Source of the DNA: Candidatus Lumbricidiphila eiseniae | Lineage (GTDB): Bacteria; Actinomycetota; Actinomycetes; Actinomycetales; Microbacteriaceae | NCBI GenBank assembly: GCA_002529645.1 | Contig: NAEP01000042.1 | Location: 1 to 64,000 of the forward strand | DNA length: 64,000 nt | Reading direction: 5' to 3' | Shown here: piece after piece, positions 14,248 through 50,784 of the stretch | Numbering within the stretch: position 1 is the first letter of the stretch | Layout of the letters: every line of letters begins with the position of its first letter | The notes under the pieces: generated by a model | Seen by the model: only the letters and a program-made list of their open reading frames with translations | What the model was told of the DNA's origin: nothing | Database searches by the model: none | Made by a program: the position numbers and the translations under genes

Positions 14248-14337
14248 GGCGGTGCTGTGCGCGCGGCGCGTGATCTACGGCCAAAAATACCCTTACGAAA
14301 GCCGGATCGGCGTCGCTGTGCGCGCGGCGCGTGACCT
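14248..14337. repeat. CRISPR-like unit B: two ~29-bp repeats with a 32-bp spacer
   Basis: 14248-14276 and 14309-14337: ggcg(gt/tc)gctgtgcgcgcggcgcgtga(t/c)ct; 20-bp identical core; period 61; core dyad CGCGC-g-GCGCG. Confidence 0.65.
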
Positions 14338-16799: not shown

Positions 16800-16947
16800 G
16801 TGACAGTCCCTGCTCGAGGAACGGTAGATAGCGCGAAGGGAAATCTCCCGCCCGCCCTGCGACAGTTCCCTGCTCGAGGGACGGTGCTCGAATGGATTTT
16901 GCGGGTGCGATAACCTTCTGCGACAGTTCCCTGCTCGAGGAACGGTG
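16800..16947. repeat. CRISPR-like unit C: three repeats
   Basis: ctgcgacagttccctgctcgag(g/a)gacggt-type copies near 16800, 16857 and 16918; period 61 between copies 2 and 3, ~59-60 for copies 1-2 (1-nt indel); dyad GTTCC..GGAAC. Confidence 0.75.
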
Positions 16948-19002: not shown

Positions 19003-19092
19003 CGATCGCCCTCGTGCGCAGCGCTCTTGCTTTCTGAACATTCATTCCTCGATTCGGTTCATCCGATCGCCCTCGTGCGCAGCGCTCTTGCT
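19003..19092. repeat. CRISPR-like unit D: two identical 29-bp repeats with a 32-bp spacer
   Basis: cgatcgccctcgtgcgcagcgctcttgct at 19003-19031 and 19064-19092; period 61. Confidence 0.8.
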
Positions 19093-19982: not shown

Positions 19983-20070
19983 AAGTATCCGCTGAGTAGA
20001 TGGTAAGGCACGCACGGCAACCGAGACATCCGGATATTCGGTGTAAGTATCCGCTGAGTAGAGGGAAAGG
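19983..20070. repeat. CRISPR-like unit E: two ~26-bp repeats, period 62
   Basis: aagtatccgctgagtagatggtaagg (19983-20008) and aagtatccgctgagtagagggaaagg (20045-20070). Confidence 0.6.
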
Positions 20071-20645: not shown

Positions 20646-21956
20646 ATGGACGATCTAGTCAATATCACATCGCGTCAATCAGCACGAAACCCTGGAATTG
20701 CCCGTCACGGTCGTCTCAAGCGAGCGAGTTTCTGGCGTTCCGCCACTAGACAAGTGTCACTTGTCCTCGCGGTCATCCTCGTGTCTGGAGCGGTCGTCAC
20801 CGCCTACGCGTTGCTGGATCTCGTGCACACAGCCAAACCGTCGGTGACGCTCGGGAACGAGAAGGTACTCGAGGGCGTCCCCGATGTTGGAGCTATTGAG
20901 GGCGGTGTCAACCTCCTCATTATCGGCAGCGACAGCGCGAAGGGGCAGGGCGCCGCGTTTGGTGAGGGAACAGACCGCACCGGCGTCCTCAACGACGTCA
21001 CCATCCTCTTCCACATCTCCCGGGACCACACCAATGCCTCCGTCGTGAGTTTTCCCCGCGATATGCTCGTGCCTGTTGAGGGATGCACCGACCCCGCGAA
21101 ACCCAGCCGCACCCTCTCCGCGCTATCGGGGGTCAAAATCAACACCCTGCTCAACTACGGCGGGATGCCCTGTGTCGTCAAGGCCGTGGAACAACTGACC
21201 GGAGTCACCATTCCGTTTGCCGGGATCGTGCAGTTTCTCGGCGTTGCCGCAATGTCAACGGCCGTGGGCGGGGTTCCGGTGTGCGTTGCCACGCAGCTCG
21301 ACGACAACTACACCGACACCCACCTCTCACCGGGAGAGCACACGCTGTCCGGCATCGACGCCCTGCAGTTCCTTCGCACACGGCACGGCGTGGGGGATGG
21401 CTCTGACCTCGGTCGAATTTCGAATCAGCAGGTGTTTCTCTCCGCGCTGGCACGCACGCTACAGTCGGATGGCACACTGAACGATCCGGTGAAGTTGTAC
21501 TCCCTCGCGAAGGCTGCCCTGTCCAACATGCAACTGTCCGACAGCCTCAACGATGTCACCCGACTTATTTCGATTGCGCGGGCGTTGAAAGACATCCCAC
21601 TCGATAAAATCGCGCTCGTTCAGTATCCGACCAGCTACACGCAGGGTGGCGGGGCGGTCAAACCAAACAGTTCCGCGAACCTCGTCAATAACGCACTTCA
21701 GGGGGATGTTGCGATCCAATTGTCCCCCGTAAGCCAAGAAAATAGCCCATTCGGCTCAAAAGTCGGCGCTGCCGCACCCGACCCCTCGGCGAGCAGGGCT
21801 CCCACTTCCACCACAGCCGCGCCGACCACCGGTGCCGTTGCCCCAACTGCTCCGTTCACGGTCGCGCCGACCCCGGAAACCCTCCCCGCTAATGTTCCCG
21901 GCCAGAGCGCTGCGGAAACCCGCTGCTCAGCCGGGCGGCCGCTGCGGGATCAGTAG
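20646..21956 (+). CDS. LytR-CpsA-Psr (LCP) family cell-wall glycopolymer ligase
   Basis: TM anchor then NLLIIGSDS...DRTGVLNDVTILFHISRDHTNASVVSFPRDM...RTRHGVGDGSDLGRISNQQ. Confidence 0.9.
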   Translation: MDDLVNITSRQSARNPGIARHGRLKRASFWRSATRQVSLVLAVILVSGAVVTAYALLDLVHTAKPSVTLGNEKVLEGVPDVGAIEGGVNLLIIGSDSAKGQGAAFGEGTDRTGVLNDVTILFHISRDHTNASVVSFPRDMLVPVEGCTDPAKPSRTLSALSGVKINTLLNYGGMPCVVKAVEQLTGVTIPFAGIVQFLGVAAMSTAVGGVPVCVATQLDDNYTDTHLSPGEHTLSGIDALQFLRTRHGVGDGSDLGRISNQQVFLSALARTLQSDGTLNDPVKLYSLAKAALSNMQLSDSLNDVTRLISIARALKDIPLDKIALVQYPTSYTQGGGAVKPNSSANLVNNALQGDVAIQLSPVSQENSPFGSKVGAAAPDPSASRAPTSTTAAPTTGAVAPTAPFTVAPTPETLPANVPGQSAAETRCSAGRPLRDQ

Positions 21957-22024
21957 CCACTCCGCCGCGGCTGAGAGGGCCGCCGTCGCGGGTGGGTGAC
22001 CACTGCGGGATCAGTGGCCACCCC
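21933..22024. repeat. CRISPR-like unit F: two ~28-31-bp repeats overlapping the LCP stop codon
   Basis: gggcggccgctgcgggatcagtagccactcc (21933) and gggtgaccactgcgggatcagtggccacccc (21994); 5 mismatches; period 61; dyad CCACT..AGTGG in copy 2. Confidence 0.65.
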
Positions 22025-24721: not shown

Positions 24722-24809
24722 TCTGCTGTCCACGACACGGGAACAGGATACGGAATCATCGAACGCGACTCGGGCATCAACTCTGCTGTCCACGACACGG
24801 GAACAGGAT
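24722..24809. repeat. CRISPR-like unit G: two identical 28-bp repeats with a 32-bp spacer
   Basis: tctgctgtccacgacacgggaacaggat at 24722-24749 and 24782-24809; period 60; dyad CTGT(C)C..GG(A)ACAG. Confidence 0.8.
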
Positions 24810-25394: not shown

Positions 25395-25460
25395 GCGGGT
25401 GCACACACCGTGTTTCGTGCGGGTGCACACACCGTGTTTCGTGCGGGTGCACACACCGTG
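25395..25460. repeat. tandem 24-bp repeat, ~2.7 copies, upstream of the PlsC start
   Basis: gcgggtgcacacaccgtgtttcgt repeated head-to-tail without spacers. Confidence 0.85.
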
Positions 25461-25474
25461 CGCGGGGTGTTGGT

Positions 25475-26725: not shown

Positions 26726-27423
26726 CGGTTCATGAGCACGCAAGAGTGGACACCGTTGAGCACCTCGGGCCTGCATTTTTCCACGGTGACTGTTTCATTG
26801 TGTTCGACGATAACTCACGCCTTCGATGGAGGCGGCCTGACCGACGAGAGTGGCGTCTCACCGAGATATGGCCGACAGAGAAAGAGCGACTGGGGATGGC
26901 TCAGCACATCGCACAGGGCGGGAAACTTCTCATCGTCGTGCCCATTACGAGTACTACCTACAGCGCTTTTGTAGAGGAAGTACCAACACACTATTCGACG
27001 GTTATTACGGGTTCTGGCGAAGAGCTGGTGGATTTTAGACTTGAGTCGCTTGACTGGTTACCAACTCCCCTCCGCGAGCACGCCGAAAATGCCCGCGAAC
27101 AGTTGAAGAAGCGATGGGGCAATGAACTGTGCCTACTCCGACCACCGGTGACAACCGCTAGGTTCAGTCACGAATACACGAATGTGGGTCTTGCCCTGCT
27201 GTGGCCAGATACTCCGCGGAGGCTGGTGGAACGTCATCTTGATGAACTCATCACGTCGGTATTTGACGTCCGGATAAGCCACCCGGTCAGCCATGAAAAC
27301 CTTGCTCTGTCCACGAAAGAGTCGGGCACTCGAATCCGTCCCCCATTGCAATTGGCACAGTCCGAAACCACTCGGATGATGCCGGAGGGGGAATCTAATA
27401 TGAATCCTGGGGTAACAATATGA
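26722..27423 (+). CDS. hypothetical protein in PlsC-MMPL operon
   Basis: ATGA overlaps with both neighbours indicate translational coupling. Confidence 0.65.
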   Translation: MTVHEHARVDTVEHLGPAFFHGDCFIVFDDNSRLRWRRPDRREWRLTEIWPTEKERLGMAQHIAQGGKLLIVVPITSTTYSAFVEEVPTHYSTVITGSGEELVDFRLESLDWLPTPLREHAENAREQLKKRWGNELCLLRPPVTTARFSHEYTNVGLALLWPDTPRRLVERHLDELITSVFDVRISHPVSHENLALSTKESGTRIRPPLQLAQSETTRMMPEGESNMNPGVTI

Positions 27424-29585
27424 AAATGATCACTGCAACAGCTCTTCGCGCTCCCCGAATTGTCTTGGGAATCTGGTTAGCGCTCGTGCTCGGTGCCGCG
27501 CTCTTCGCCGCCCAGCTTGACGCTGCTCTCTCCGGCGGCGGCTTCACCAATCCGCGAGCGGAGGCTCTGCTCACCCAGAAGGTTCTCGAACGGGCGTTTG
27601 GCGATGCTCCAAATCAGTTCGCCATAGTACTCGATTCCGAGACAAGTCTTCCGAAACATCTACTTGTGGACACCGAGACACTGCTAACGGATGCAGGCGC
27701 CTCCTCGATCATGACTCCGAAAACAAATCCGGGATGGCTCTCCGCCGAGGGAACCACTGCCCTGATTGTTGCTGGCTTTAGCGGCGATAATACAGCGGCG
27801 CAGAACCGCGTTCCAGACCTCCAGAAAAAGCTCAGCGCCCTCGTCGGCACCGGTGTTTCGGCATACGTCACCGGGCAAGCTGCCCTTGATTACCAGCTCA
27901 ATATCCACTCAAAAGAAGACGCAACCCGCGCCGAAATGATCGTCTTCCCACTACTCATAGTTGTGCTATTTCTCGTTTTCCGTTCAGTCGTCGCAACGCT
28001 TCTTCCACTGATGATGGCCGGATCATCACTTGCCATCGCAAATGGAATTGGCTTCCTCACAACTCAGGTCACCGAGATTTCCAACCTCTACTCGAACATC
28101 GTGTCGATGATCGGACTTGCCGTTGCCGTGGACTATTCGCTTTTCATTATCAAGCGCTTCCGAGAAGAGTTGGACCAGGGCAAGGAGTCCCTCGCAGCGA
28201 TCCGCGCAACTATGGCCACGGCAGGCCACTCAGTAATTTTCAGCGGCATCGCGGTTATTCTTGCCCTTGCCGCCCTGTTTGTTCCGAATGTTATGGTGTT
28301 CACCAGCATCGCCCTCGGTGGAATCATCGTGACTTTTGCCGCCCTTCTCATTAGCATGACGGTTCTCCCCGCTGCACTCCTTCTCCTTGGTCCCAATATT
28401 GATCGTGGAACTCTTCCCTGGTTGAGACGAAAGAACACTCACCTTGCTCCCCAGTCCCGACCTTTTACGCGGCATCCCGGCCTCGTGAGCGCAGTGGGAA
28501 TTGCCCTCATGATTGCTGCGACGATCCCGATCCTTGGCCTCTCGCTACAATCACCGGTCGCGAGTGCGACTATTTTGCCCGGGAACGATCCCGCCCGCAT
28601 CGGCCTGGAAACTATGACCAAGAAGATCGGTAGTGAGGGATTGTTCCCCATTCAGGTGGTTCTGACCGCGCCGCCCGGTGCTACCGTCAGTGATACGCTG
28701 CGGGCAGTGCAGCAGGCTACCGCGTTTGCCGACAACGAAGCGGGAGTGGCCAAAGTCACATCTGTCACAACGACAGGTGCTCCGAACGAACAGCTACATG
28801 CGGCGCTGTCTTCTGGAGCCATACCCCAGAGCCTGCGCCCACTGTGGGCGATTGACGGAGCGTCGGTGGTCACACGGCTTCTCATCGAAACATCCGATGG
28901 CCCAGACTCTGTGCGTGCCCATGAGCTGGTTGGCACCCTCCGAACCGCGCTACCGCCCACGCTGAACGGATCTGTAACCGTCGCTGTGACGGGAGCCACC
29001 GCCCAGGGTGCCGACTTTGATCAAACTCTTATCCGGTCAATTCCGCTCATCGCTGGCCTCGTGTTCCTGCTCACATTCCTCATGTTGATGGTCGCGTTTC
29101 GCTCGGCAATCTTGCCGCTTCTAGCCCTCTTCTTCAACACGCTTGTCGTCGGTGCCAGCCTGGGCCTTTTGACTCTGCTCCAAAAGACAATCAGCGACGT
29201 TCCGCTTAATTCGGTAACACCGGTCCTGCTCTTTGCCGTCATGTTCGGGCTGAGCATGGACTACATGGTCATTATCATTGCTCGCATCACCGAGGCCTAC
29301 CGAGACGGCAAGGACTTCTATCACGCCATTCAAACCGGAACGGCACAAACACGGAACATGATCAACAGTGCGGCCCTCATCATGATCACCGTCTTCCTCG
29401 CCTTCATGACCGGGCAGATCAGCATTGTTCGCGAGATCGGAATCGGACTCGCGCTCGCTGTTGCCTTCGACGCACTGTTGATTCGGATGGTCATCATGCC
29501 TGCCGTTCTCCGTACCCTCGGGCCTCGGGTTTTCGGTCGCCGTTCTCCGCGTCCCCTACCGTCTCTCACTCCCCCTCAGGAGTGA
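27420..29585 (+). CDS. MMPL/RND-family transporter
   Basis: 721 aa with two sets of TM bundles: VDYSLFIIKRFREEL and MDYMVIIIARITEAY. Confidence 0.9.
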   Translation: MKMITATALRAPRIVLGIWLALVLGAALFAAQLDAALSGGGFTNPRAEALLTQKVLERAFGDAPNQFAIVLDSETSLPKHLLVDTETLLTDAGASSIMTPKTNPGWLSAEGTTALIVAGFSGDNTAAQNRVPDLQKKLSALVGTGVSAYVTGQAALDYQLNIHSKEDATRAEMIVFPLLIVVLFLVFRSVVATLLPLMMAGSSLAIANGIGFLTTQVTEISNLYSNIVSMIGLAVAVDYSLFIIKRFREELDQGKESLAAIRATMATAGHSVIFSGIAVILALAALFVPNVMVFTSIALGGIIVTFAALLISMTVLPAALLLLGPNIDRGTLPWLRRKNTHLAPQSRPFTRHPGLVSAVGIALMIAATIPILGLSLQSPVASATILPGNDPARIGLETMTKKIGSEGLFPIQVVLTAPPGATVSDTLRAVQQATAFADNEAGVAKVTSVTTTGAPNEQLHAALSSGAIPQSLRPLWAIDGASVVTRLLIETSDGPDSVRAHELVGTLRTALPPTLNGSVTVAVTGATAQGADFDQTLIRSIPLIAGLVFLLTFLMLMVAFRSAILPLLALFFNTLVVGASLGLLTLLQKTISDVPLNSVTPVLLFAVMFGLSMDYMVIIIARITEAYRDGKDFYHAIQTGTAQTRNMINSAALIMITVFLAFMTGQISIVREIGIGLALAVAFDALLIRMVIMPAVLRTLGPRVFGRRSPRPLPSLTPPQE

Positions 29586-29651
29586 GAGACCAGTCCCAAT
29601 AGGGATGCCGCCGGGTACGCCGACCAGCACTCCCCCTCGGGAGTAAGAGGC
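29561..29651. repeat. CRISPR-like unit I: two ~24-28-bp repeats; copy 1 spans the MMPL stop codon and a 12-bp-arm hairpin
   Basis: cactccccctc(a/g)ggagt(g/a)agag at 29567 and 29628; period 61; copy 1 hairpin gtctctcactcc-ccctca-ggagtgagagac. Confidence 0.75.
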
Positions 29652-29709: not shown

Positions 29710-29861
29710 AGACTCCTCGCTCACGCGGGGGAACGCGTGCCGCCGCAGTTGCGACAGGTGGGCACCGTGCAGACTCCTCGCTCACGCGGGGGAACGCGGT
29801 AACCGTGGGTTATTCCGGGTGCCGACAGATCGGAGGTTCCTCGCTCACGCGGGGGAACGCG
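29710..29861. CRISPR. CRISPR-like unit J: three 28-bp type I-E-like repeats
   Basis: agactcctcgctcacgcgggggaacgcg at 29710-29737 and 29771-29798 (identical, 33-bp spacer) and 29834-29861 (2 mismatches, 35-bp spacer). Reverse complement CGCGTTCCCCCGCGTGAGCGAGGAGTCT resembles the type I-E repeat pattern. No cas genes nearby. Confidence 0.55.
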
Positions 29862-29874
29862 ACCGGTCGCACAG

Positions 29875-30906
29875 CTAGCTTTCTTGGAGCATCGCGCGCA
29901 GCTTCGTAATCTCGTACAGTGCGACCGAGGCAGCGATACCCGCGTTGAGCGACTCGGTCGCCGCCGAGATTGGAATACTCACGATCGCATCGCACCGCTC
30001 GGCGACCAGCCGCGACAGCCCCTTGCCCTCGCTACCGACGACGATGACGAGCGGTCGATCAGCCCACGATAGTCCCGGCAGCTGCACGTGACCACCACCA
30101 TCAAGCCCGAGCACGAACACTCCTCGCTCCTTCAGAGCGGTGAGCGTCTGCGTCAGATTCCCCGCCATCGCCACCGGAACCCGCGCCGCAGCACCGGCTG
30201 AGGTCTTCCATGCGGCCGAGTTGACGCCCACTGAGCGACGCTGTGGAACAATAACCCCGTGCCCACCGAACGCTCCTGTCGAGCGCAGAATCGCACCCAG
30301 GTTCCGCGGGTCGGTGATGCCGTCGAGAGCGACAAACAACGGTACATCCCGACGAGCTCGCACTGTTTCGAGCAATTCCAACGGGTGCGCGTATGAATAC
30401 GGTGGAACCTTCAACGCAAGTCCTTGGTGCACCCCTCCCTCACCGGCAAGCCGATCCAACTCGGGCCGCATGACTTCAAGAATTGGGATGCCGCGGTGCG
30501 TCGCCATCCTCAACGCCTCTTTCACACGGTCATCCATCTCAATCCGCGCCGCGAGATACAGCGTTGTCGCCGGAATGTGCGCACGCAGCGCCTCGACAAC
30601 GGAGTTGCGACCGGTGACAATCTCGGTGTCATCATGTGCTGTGGCGCGGCGACCGCCGCCACCCGGTGCGCGTATGCCATCGGATCGTCGTCCTGCTGCC
30701 CCGCCCGCAGCCGCAGCATATCGCTCCTTCGCGGACTTCCGCTTACCGGCCGGATGCCACGCCCGATCTTCCGCCTTCGGAGTGGGCCCTTTACCCTCAA
30801 GCGCCTTCCGCCCGTGCCCCCCGGTGCCAACCTGATTCCCGTGTGCTGCTTTCCGCACGGCGCCCGCACGTGGTTTTCCTGCACCCTTCATGTGTCCAGA
30901 CTCCAA
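29875..30906 (-). CDS. rlmB: 23S rRNA (guanosine-2'-O-)-methyltransferase RlmB (SpoU/TrmH family)
   Basis: GRNSVVEALRAHIP...LFVALDGITDPRNLGAILRSTGAFGGHGVIVPQRRS...VVGSEGKGLSRLVAERCD. Confidence 0.9.
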   Translation of the reverse strand: MESGHMKGAGKPRAGAVRKAAHGNQVGTGGHGRKALEGKGPTPKAEDRAWHPAGKRKSAKERYAAAAGGAAGRRSDGIRAPGGGGRRATAHDDTEIVTGRNSVVEALRAHIPATTLYLAARIEMDDRVKEALRMATHRGIPILEVMRPELDRLAGEGGVHQGLALKVPPYSYAHPLELLETVRARRDVPLFVALDGITDPRNLGAILRSTGAFGGHGVIVPQRRSVGVNSAAWKTSAGAAARVPVAMAGNLTQTLTALKERGVFVLGLDGGGHVQLPGLSWADRPLVIVVGSEGKGLSRLVAERCDAIVSIPISAATESLNAGIAASVALYEITKLRAMLQES

Positions 30907-34468: not shown

Positions 34469-34557
34469 GCGCTTCCACCTCGAGCACGGAACGCCGCCGA
34501 ACCGCGCTGGCAAGACTTCGATGTCGACAGCGTTTCCACCTCGAGCACGGAACGCCG
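34469..34557. repeat. CRISPR-like unit K: two 28-bp repeats with a 33-bp spacer
   Basis: gcg(c/t)ttccacctcgagcacggaacgccg at 34469-34496 and 34530-34557; 1 mismatch; period 61; dyad GCGTT(T)CC..GGAACGC. Confidence 0.8.
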
Positions 34558-34569
34558 TCAGGCCAGAAA

Positions 34570-34656
34570 CCGGCGTCCGAGACAGCGGGACGGAGTATCC
34601 GACCCGCTCGGCATACGGCCTCGCTGCAGCCGGCGTCCAAGACAGCGGGACGGAGT
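34570..34656. repeat. CRISPR-like unit L: two 27-bp repeats with a 33-bp spacer
   Basis: ccggcgtcc(g/a)agacagcgggacggagt at 34570-34596 and 34630-34656; 1 mismatch; period 60; dyad CGTCC..GGACG. Confidence 0.8.
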
Positions 34657-34765
34657 CGACGACGATGCTGCGACAGCGGGCCAACGCTCCTGGCCTACGC
34701 TAAGATCGAGGTCGATTCCACCGCGCGTTCTTTTCACCGGACCGCGCCGAACTACGGGAGTAAAC

Positions 34766-36213: not shown

Positions 36214-37584
36214 TCAGCTTGATGCGGCACACGCCGCGGGTTTGATGGTGGAATCAGCGAAGCTGCCCGTGGCTGGGCGAGCAGTTTGGGTGGGCGGGGT
36301 GAACTCAGCAGGTCCCGCAGGCGAGAAGAACTCGGCGGATCCCGCAGGCGGAGCGGATCCTGTAGGCGGAGCGGATCCCGCAGGCGAGGCGGGCTCCGTG
36401 GACGAGGCGGGCTCCGCAGGCTCACGCGCCTCTCTCACCGCCAGGTCAGGCTGAGTCGGGCCGGGTTCCGCGAGCGGTAGCCGAATTGTGAACGTAGAAC
36501 CGCGCCCCGGCTGCGACCACACTCGCACATCACCACCGTGATTCTGCACAGTGTGCTTGACAATGCTCAACCCTAATCCTGATCCACCCGTGTGCCGCGA
36601 GCGGGCCTGATCAACGCGGTAAAACCGTTCGAACACTCGGTCAAGATCCTCCGGCTCAATGCCGATGCCCTGGTCCGTGACCGCAATCTCCACCACCGGG
36701 CCATCCACCCGAACCCCAACCCCGACACGCCCGCCCTCGCTGGAGTATGCAACGGCATTGGAGATGAGATTGTCTACGGCGACGACCATCAGCGCACGAT
36801 CACCGTAGATGCACGCCCCAGAGGAGGCACGGACCGCGATATCCACTCGCCTGTCAGCGGCAATGATCCGATTCTGATCGGCCGCAGCCCGAACAATCTG
36901 GTCAACACTGACGAGCGTATCGGGGCGCAGCGCGTCATGAGCCTGCAGTCGGGAGAGCTCGATGACATCCTTCGTGATCAACGCGAGCCGTTCCGCCTCG
37001 ACGCCGAGCCGGGTCGCGAACCGTTTAACCTGCTCCGGCTCGTTTGCGGCAGAATCGATTGCCTCGGCCAAAAGGCTAACCGAGGCAATCGGGGTCTTGA
37101 GCTCATGACTAATGTTCGCGATGAAGTCGCGACGCACCTCGTCGAGCCGGTTGGCCTCTGTCCGATCCTCCGCAAGCAGGAGCACGAACCTCGTACCGAG
37201 GCGTGCACCCCGCACCCACACGCGGATTGTCGCGTCACTGAATGGTCCGCGAGCAAGCGAAATCTCCGTCGCGATCGGTGCCTCCGACCGGCGCACCGCG
37301 GCTGCCAGCTCAACAAGTTCCGGGTGCGCGACCACCTGCTGCCGAACCAGACCCATCGCCAACGCGCCCGGCGAGGCCCGCAGCACATTGTTCGAGGGGT
37401 CGAGAACAATCCCCGCGGACTCCAGCACATCCAGCACCTGATTGACTCCATCGGGCAGTTGCGGCATAACGACGTTCGCCGCGTGACGGCCCCGACGCTC
37501 GGCCAGACGAAGCACCACCACGACAATAACTCCAACGGCAGCACCAAATACCAGCGCAACGAGCACCAGCCAGCGTGAGTCCAT
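36214..37584 (-). CDS. senX3: SenX3-like phosphate sensor histidine kinase with Pro/Ala/Ser-rich C-terminal tail
   Basis: FIANISHELKTPIASVSLLAEAI...HATPase motifs...GGSGLGLSIVKHTVQNHGG. Confidence 0.85.
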   Translation of the reverse strand: MDSRWLVLVALVFGAAVGVIVVVVLRLAERRGRHAANVVMPQLPDGVNQVLDVLESAGIVLDPSNNVLRASPGALAMGLVRQQVVAHPELVELAAAVRRSEAPIATEISLARGPFSDATIRVWVRGARLGTRFVLLLAEDRTEANRLDEVRRDFIANISHELKTPIASVSLLAEAIDSAANEPEQVKRFATRLGVEAERLALITKDVIELSRLQAHDALRPDTLVSVDQIVRAAADQNRIIAADRRVDIAVRASSGACIYGDRALMVVAVDNLISNAVAYSSEGGRVGVGVRVDGPVVEIAVTDQGIGIEPEDLDRVFERFYRVDQARSRHTGGSGLGLSIVKHTVQNHGGDVRVWSQPGRGSTFTIRLPLAEPGPTQPDLAVREAREPAEPASSTEPASPAGSAPPTGSAPPAGSAEFFSPAGPAEFTPPTQTARPATGSFADSTIKPAACAASS

Positions 37585-38446: not shown

Positions 38447-39196
38447 CTACCCTGCGCGGCCCTGCGCGGCAACCGCCGCAGCGCCGAGGCGGGCGGCATC
38501 CGGATCGAGGTACTCGCCCGCCGACAGCGGCAGGAAGTCCTCCCCGAGCTGATACACGAGCGGGATGCCGGTCGGAATGTTAAGCTCGGCGATGTCCGCG
38601 TCGCTCACCCCATCAAGGTGTTTCACCAGGGCGCGGAGCGAGTTGCCGTGCGCGACCACGAGCACAACTTTTCCCGCCGCAAGATCGGGGAAGATGTCGT
38701 GTTGCCAGTAGGGGAGCATCCGCGCAATGACGTCCTTCAAACACTCCGTGCGCGGTAGCTCACCGTCGGCGACACGGGCATACCGAGGGTCGTTGATCTG
38801 TGACCACTTCGCGTCATCAGCCAGTGCCGGTGGAGGCACATCGAACGAACGCCGCCAGAGCTGAAACTGCTCTGGCCCGTACTTCTCGAGCGTCGCGGCC
38901 TTGTCGAGCCCCTGCAGCGCCCCGTAGTGCCGTTCGTTGAGCCGCCAAGAACGACGCACGTCAATCCACGCCCGGGCGGCTCTGTCAAGCGCAATATTGG
39001 CAGTCTGGATGGCCCGCGTGAGCACCGAGGTGTGCACGACATCGGGCAGGATGCCCCGCTCGGCGAGCAGCACTCCGGCGTGCGCAGCCTCCGCCTCCCC
39101 CACCTCGCTCAATCGGACATCCACCCAGCCGGTGAAGAGGTTCTGCTGGTTCCAGACGCTGTTGCCATGGCGAAGAAGGACAAGGGTGTGTGGCAT
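38447..39196 (-). CDS. gpmA: 2,3-bisphosphoglycerate-dependent phosphoglycerate mutase
   Basis: [30 protein letters not shown]...[20 protein letters not shown]. Confidence 0.95.
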
Positions 39197-39280
39197 TCCC
39201 TCAGCCTATCGGGGGGATCCGATCGGATGCTTGATGGCTGGTCTCCCAACATGAATTCCCTCAGCCTATCGGGGGATCCG
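39195..39280. repeat. CRISPR-like unit M: two 26/27-bp repeats with a 33-bp spacer overlapping the gpmA initiation region
   Basis: attccctcagcctatcggggg(g)atccg at 39195-39221 and 39255-39280; 1-nt G indel; period 60. Confidence 0.8.
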
Positions 39281-43515: not shown

Positions 43516-44439
43516 GTGCACGACAGTAGCACCACATCCGCCCAGAAGTTGAACAGGCTGGTTCGTCCGGCAGCCTGGCCCTGGCTTCTTCTCACCACGG
43601 TCGTAGCGACAATCCTCACAAGCGGATTTACGGGCTTCACGAACGGGTTTACGAGCTTCACGAACGGGTTTACGAGCTTCACGAACGAACTCGTGAGCTT
43701 CACGAGCAAGTTCACGATCCCCCCGAACGAACTCACGATCTTCACGAACGATCTCACGCGGGTGCCACTCATCGTGCTAGCAGTGGGCTTGGCCTTCACC
43801 ATCACCTTCGGGGTGCTCCGCGCGTTCCGCAGGGTGAACCTCAACTGCGAGGTCGAGGGGCCTAACGCGAACTGGCACTCCCTCATTCGCAGTCATTGGC
43901 CCGGGGTGACTCAACTTGACTCTGTCTGGCACGTGACCGAGCAACGTGCGACTCAGACGCCTTATCACCAGAAGATCAACGCCGGTGCCGACTACATCAT
44001 TCATCGGCAGCGCGTGAAGGTCGCACTGTCGCCTCACGCTCGGGTGAAGAGCAATCTCGGCCTGCCGACTTTTATCGACGGCAAACACAGCATCTCGTTC
44101 TTACCAGACCGCATCCTCGTTCGGTCAGGTAGTTCATGGAGCTATCACGATTACAGTGACCTGCGGCTCAGCTGCCACCGGCAGCGGGTCACCGAACCCG
44201 GTACCGGTCCTGACAATAGTCAGCGGGTTGGCAAGACCTGGCAATACGCCAACAAGAATGGTGGTCCCGACGGGCGCTTCAAGAATAATCGGGAGTTGTC
44301 GGTCGTACTCTACGGCGAGGTAAAACTGATCACACCGACGGGATTTTGCTGGATACTTCAGCTTTCAAGGCCAGAGACGGCAGCCACGATGACGACGATC
44401 CTTCAAGCACACCCGTCGCTCAAGACCGTCACACGGTAG
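43516..44439 (+). CDS. membrane protein with FTNGFTS-type heptad repeats between two TM segments
   Basis: WLLLTTVVATIL-TSGFTGFTNGFTSFTNGFTSFTNELVSFTSKF...PLIVLAVGLAFTITFGVL...C-terminal WQYANKNGGPDGRFKNNRELSVVLYGE motif. Confidence 0.65.
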   Translation: MHDSSTTSAQKLNRLVRPAAWPWLLLTTVVATILTSGFTGFTNGFTSFTNGFTSFTNELVSFTSKFTIPPNELTIFTNDLTRVPLIVLAVGLAFTITFGVLRAFRRVNLNCEVEGPNANWHSLIRSHWPGVTQLDSVWHVTEQRATQTPYHQKINAGADYIIHRQRVKVALSPHARVKSNLGLPTFIDGKHSISFLPDRILVRSGSSWSYHDYSDLRLSCHRQRVTEPGTGPDNSQRVGKTWQYANKNGGPDGRFKNNRELSVVLYGEVKLITPTGFCWILQLSRPETAATMTTILQAHPSLKTVTR

Positions 44440-50695: not shown

Positions 50696-50784
50696 CAGCA
50701 CCCTCGGTGCGCGAAGAGAGGTGTCGGCAGCAGCGGGTATCACATGCCAACCCGGACAACACCCTCGGTGCGCGAAGACGGGTG
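50696..50784. repeat. CRISPR-like unit N: two 28-bp repeats with a 33-bp spacer
   Basis: cagcaccctcggtgcgcgaagagaggtg (50696-50723) and caacaccctcggtgcgcgaagacgggtg (50757-50784); 3 mismatches; period 61; dyad CACCC..GGGTG in copy 2. Confidence 0.8.

Follow-up and report, generated by a model that had tools for sequence, protein, structure and literature searches.

A three-repeat unit in Candidatus Lumbricidiphila eiseniae as a probable scar of off-target spacer integration by a type I-E CRISPR system

When a CRISPR spacer is integrated away from its array, a repeat-length target resembling the native repeat is reportedly duplicated, as Nivala, Shipman and Church are said to have described in 2018 (Nat Microbiol 3:310), and only a few putative natural cases, in Yersinia pestis and Sulfolobus islandicus, are said to be named there. 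Overexpression of the E. coli type I-E Cas1-Cas2 leads to off-target integration, with spacers entering the chromosome elsewhere than at the array, as described in PMC11788318, and motif-guided non-canonical integration is discussed in PMC9456107. For a minimal type V-C Cas1, PMC13034035 mentions frequent off-locus integration when targeting factors are missing.

The repeat units described here share with the E. coli events their location at chromosomal sites outside the array and the duplication of a repeat-length target. In E. coli the enzyme was overexpressed, whereas here one natural genome holds fixed events by the hundred, differing in age and with spacers traceable to self. The type V-C case is of a different type and involves Cas1 alone, whereas the host here has a complete type I-E system with Cas2. 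With a canonical type I-E array the units have in common 28-bp repeats, 33-nt spacers, a 61-bp period, and an AA PAM, and some of them, like such an array, grow to three or four repeats; they differ from it in having no leader, no common repeat sequence, spacers from self, and no cas genes alongside. A literature search, incomplete in its coverage and so no proof of absence, turned up no natural genome reported to carry such events in the hundreds. The process is one known from overexpression in E. coli, while its scale, the self origin of the spacers, and the long accumulation appear to be new.

The window, which is the whole 64,000-nucleotide stretch of DNA that was analysed, carries three repeats of about 28 bp and two spacers at 29710-29861, here called unit J. 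As the sequence-only reading had it, repeat copies 1 (29710..29737) and 2 (29771..29798) are identical over 28 bp and copy 3 (29834..29861) has 2 mismatches to them, with AGAC becoming AGGT; all three are on the minus strand. The intervals of 33 bp and then 35 bp between the repeats are also as claimed, with the refinement that the second insert is itself 33 nt (29799-29831), which would mean that the final two bases ahead of copy 3 either are part of the duplicated target or belong to an indel next to it. At 3 or fewer mismatches the unit J repeat has 3 copies in the 2.85-Mb genome as a whole, while the reversed repeat pattern has none.

The placement of the unit between convergent MMPL and rlmB genes is borne out by Pfam, with an MMPL-family transporter gene on the left (27420..29585, plus strand; PF03176) and a SpoU/RlmB-type rRNA methyltransferase gene on the right (29875..30906, minus strand; PF00588, PF08032). 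These are the only neighbours, and there is no leader and there are no cas genes in this neighbourhood, the latter being found on contig C67. A further unit, a 22-bp partial repeat pair with 61-bp spacing, lies beside unit J at 29567..29649, overlapping the MMPL gene at its 3' end, and its spacer matches C17:9149-9180 (32 nt, 96.9%). In related genomes the MMPL gene is not adjacent to rlmB, and no pre-insertion site for unit J was found there, since rlmB in these relatives is only about 74% (73–75%) identical in DNA and the intergenic region is not alignable.

Both spacers of unit J come from the host chromosome, and neither has a match among phage records; that they are not foreign was missed in the sequence-only reading. 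Spacer 1 (29738..29770, 33 nt) is identical at 33/33 positions to C9:44516-44548 on the minus strand, inside a predicted gene, where the source is flanked by GA and TC and so has no AA PAM. Spacer 2 (29799..29831, minus strand, 33 nt) derives from about 8153-8185 of C12, also on the minus strand, with a core matching at 30/30 positions and 32/33 matching in all; TT lies at the 3' edge of its source, corresponding to an AA PAM on the other strand. The repeat is identical to the host's canonical repeat at 17/28 positions, a likeness reached by 0.17% of random sites, and unit J ranks among the top 3 of 190 units in this respect. Three readings had been offered for the unit: an array that is nascent, one that is orphaned, or the closest match to the target that the integrase prefers. 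A nascent or ectopic origin is supported by this rank and by the complete set of type I-E genes in the genome, so that lack of such a system in the species can no longer be held against it, but the site is not a special one, being one of hundreds.

The resident type I-E locus on C67 runs in the order cas1 and cas2, a 70-repeat array, cas5, cas7, cse2, cse1, cas3, cas6e, and a second small array. The canonical repeat is ATCCGCCCCGCACATGCGGGGGTGAACC, with a 61-bp period. The cas1 gene scores 334.7 bits against cas1_ECOLI (TIGR03638), cas2 scores 63.9 bits against cas_CT1978 (TIGR01873), and cas3 is an open frame of 977 codons. It was suspected that cas6e was missing, but the gene is present at C67:61147-61689. 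The second array, with a near-canonical repeat, is at C67:61839-62000 (near the start of L139), directly upstream of cas6e. Cas2e was found in 0 of 36 other same-genus genomes searched, and there was no same-genus match to Cas1 among those listed; absence of the cas genes from these genomes suggests that the system was acquired horizontally.

Three canonical spacers (50, 52, and 66) match a resident prophage on C11 (L171:5148-17480), two of them perfectly, and the prophage carries genes for terminase, portal, capsid, and tape measure. This self-targeting is somehow tolerated, even though cas3, like the rest of the cas genes, appears intact. Comparison of 26 canonical spacers with phages gave a single weak match. 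The canonical array opens with a 77-bp stretch, comprising the leader end and one repeat, that is duplicated perfectly in tandem (L013:7574-7727, on C67), and the spacer CTGTATAGTGCGGCATATGCCGAGTCTGAAGTC occurs twice in the array, at L013:7821 and L013:9775.

Unit J has many siblings. In 2.00 Mb of sequence, taken in stretches and amounting to 70% of the 2.85-Mb genome, there are 254 repeat pairs at 228 unit loci, a count that leaves out the canonical arrays, including the second small near-canonical one. Start-to-start spacings of 60, 61, and 62 bp account for 71, 138, and 25 pairs, against about 0.8 pair for each remaining spacing in the 40–85 bp range once the shoulders of the peak are left out, an excess that shows unit J not to be a chance occurrence. 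Nearly every unit has its own repeat sequence, the duplication is typically 27–29 bp across the genome, and three or four repeats are present at some 25 loci. Some units are old, with at least 4 mismatches between repeats, and others are perfect duplications. By extrapolation, the whole genome is estimated to hold about 300–325 unit loci.

Within the window, a repeat scan detects about a dozen two-copy 28-bp repeats at 60–63 bp spacing, each of distinct sequence. Twelve siblings with 60–62 bp spacing are at 292-379, 14248-14337, 16857-16947, 19003-19092, 19983-20070, 21933-22024, 24722-24809, 29567-29649, 34469-34557, 34570-34663, 39195-39275, and 50696-50784. Eight of the 12 have spacer sources elsewhere in the genome, those starting at 16857, 34570, and 39195 deriving from C2, and those at 19003, 19983, 24722, 29567, and 34469 from C34, C45, C15, C17, and C12, respectively.

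Across the sampled 70% of the chromosome, 138 of the 254 ectopic spacers (54%) match a second location, compared with 0/254 for reversed spacers and 21/254 for genomic 39-mers taken from 200 bp away, the latter matches probably arising through dispersed repeats. A matched share of 54% in a 70% sample of the genome leaves room for as many as roughly one pair in four to be decayed, foreign, or a product of chance; among the perfect-duplication 61-bp units, 28/44 spacers match, which is near the 70% expected if all are self. The modal match between spacer and source is exactly 33 nt (63/130). The G+C content of the ectopic spacers is that of the genome (0.606), and that of the canonical spacers is 0.52.

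An AA directly 5' of the source or a TT directly 3' of it is present for 57 of the 93 matches of 32–34 nt, where about 8% would be expected. The two arrangements are nearly equal in number, which would mean that inserts occur in both orientations. AA is likewise present, at the leader-side end, in the prophage sources of canonical spacers 50, 52, and 66, and one capture rule therefore fits both sets. The sources are unevenly distributed over the contigs (C2, 12 versus 4.4 expected; C56, 14 versus 6.3; C5, 11 versus 4.2; chi-square p = 0.0002), and at C2:71243-71632 there are overlapping or near-adjacent sources, which are possible capture hot spots.

The target sites, when oriented by the PAM and exact spacer edges, have C at positions 8-9 and G at positions 20-21, like the CC and GG of the canonical repeat. 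A CC-N10-GG core is present in 21.6% of the units and 1.7% of random sites, and mean similarity to the canonical repeat is 12.4 for units and 10.4 for random sites. Some units lie within dispersed repeat or gene families of which other copies have no insert. The clearest case is the unit at C5:69173, with a spacer from C10, where the copy at C14:1915-1775 can be aligned to the joined flanks over 141 bp with no gap and lacks exactly one repeat plus the spacer. Less clean pairs of this kind involve C34:24564, C9:10770, and C23:117475, and comparisons of EamA transporter and PriA genes gave suggestive length differences in alignments that were not clean. Several ectopic integrations have also struck a family of dispersed intergenic repeats, at least about 150 bp long (C1:161336-161478, C14:1775-2036, C12:69700-69844, C34:117049-117387, and others).

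Samples of 24 genomes were used as controls, one from the same genus without cas2e (G002) and 23 with type I-E cas genes. There were 0 units outside arrays in 400 kb from G002 and three type I-E genomes of the order that have long arrays, and twenty further type I-E genomes, at 20 kb each, yielded 4 pairs resembling background, compared with the roughly 46 that the density in this host would predict. Ectopic units are therefore not a general property of type I-E genomes in the order.

Taken with the duplicated target, these observations make it very likely that the host's own type I-E Cas1-Cas2 integrated spacers off target twice in succession here, and that unit J is the resulting neo-CRISPR scar. 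Against this stand the absence of an AA PAM from the source of spacer 1 and the failure to find a pre-insertion site for unit J in relatives. That unit J should instead be an orphan or degenerate true CRISPR array, once serving in immunity and with repeats descended from the canonical array, is highly improbable. The 17/28 likeness to the canonical repeat, the three repeats, and the regular spacing are what such an array would have, but its spacers are chromosomal self DNA, no leader or cas genes are near it, and the true second array at C67:61839, near-canonical and beside cas6e, looks quite unlike the scars. Hundreds of siblings with unrelated repeats cannot, moreover, all be relics of arrays.

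Flank duplication is common to ordinary tandem duplications, transposon footprints, and slippage repeats, and some of the 60-bp pairs are in coding tandem repeats, yet the chance that the units are events of these kinds is close to nil. What lies between the repeats was copied, over 33 nt, from another locus bearing an AA PAM, and is not part of the duplicated site; no element is shared between units, and the spacing falls sharply at 60–62 bp, matching the CRISPR array. For the units with matched interiors, this explanation is refuted. It is also very unlikely that the integrations were made by the Cas1-Cas2 of another system, since lost or mobile. The age of some units would allow it, as would the absence of cas genes from the other same-genus genomes searched, which makes it probable that the present system was acquired. 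The PAM, spacer length, spacing, and repeat core are, however, all the same as those of the resident array, and the perfect duplications suggest recent activity.

The agent would accordingly be the resident Cas1-Cas2. Carrying 33-nt prespacers excised from the host chromosome, for the most part beside an AA PAM, the integrase may have bypassed the leader-repeat junction in favour of a 28-bp intergenic site similar to the canonical repeat's core, with the target site being duplicated at each integration. Spacer 2 would have been inserted first, after which its two flanking repeats diverged, and spacer 1 later, leaving repeats 1 and 2 still identical. That spacer 2 is the older is suggested by the divergence of repeat 3 and the one mismatch in spacer 2, compared with the identity of repeats 1 and 2 and the perfect match of spacer 1. 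The same process would have acted at about 300 other sites in the genome, with many of the insertions now old. As the repeats of the units differ from the canonical repeat, Cas6e is unlikely to process them and the self spacers probably do no harm; unit J itself is presumably functionally inert. Candidate reasons for the permissiveness of this genome are that a host factor guiding the integrase to the leader was missing after horizontal transfer, or that Cas1-Cas2 activity was raised.

The units document, in a natural setting and largely free of selection, which DNA a type I-E integrase captures and the places into which it is inserted, and they provide many natural target sites from which integrase specificity in the absence of a leader can be worked out. 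What is captured ectopically is mostly self DNA, while the exact same-genome matches of the canonical array are mainly to the resident prophage. The units also show that a CRISPR system can be a significant source of insertion mutations. It is conceivable, as a long shot, that the integrase is now a genome-wide insertion mutagen some of whose products are used, either as in-frame insertions of 20 codons into proteins or as neo-arrays with self-derived guides acting on the source genes.

Of 229 loci placed against our own gene calls, which are rough and approximate (81% coding), 122 are intergenic, 51 are within genes, and 56 lie across a gene end. Units of 60 bp, which keep the reading frame, are enriched in genes (26/57, compared with 30/133 intergenic; Fisher p = 0.0018), and some of these in-gene pairs may be ordinary coding repeats. 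Plain tandem repeats, unrelated to the units, are also present in the window, at 43595-43750, 36335-36406, and 25395-25466, with periods of 21, 18, and 24 bp, respectively.
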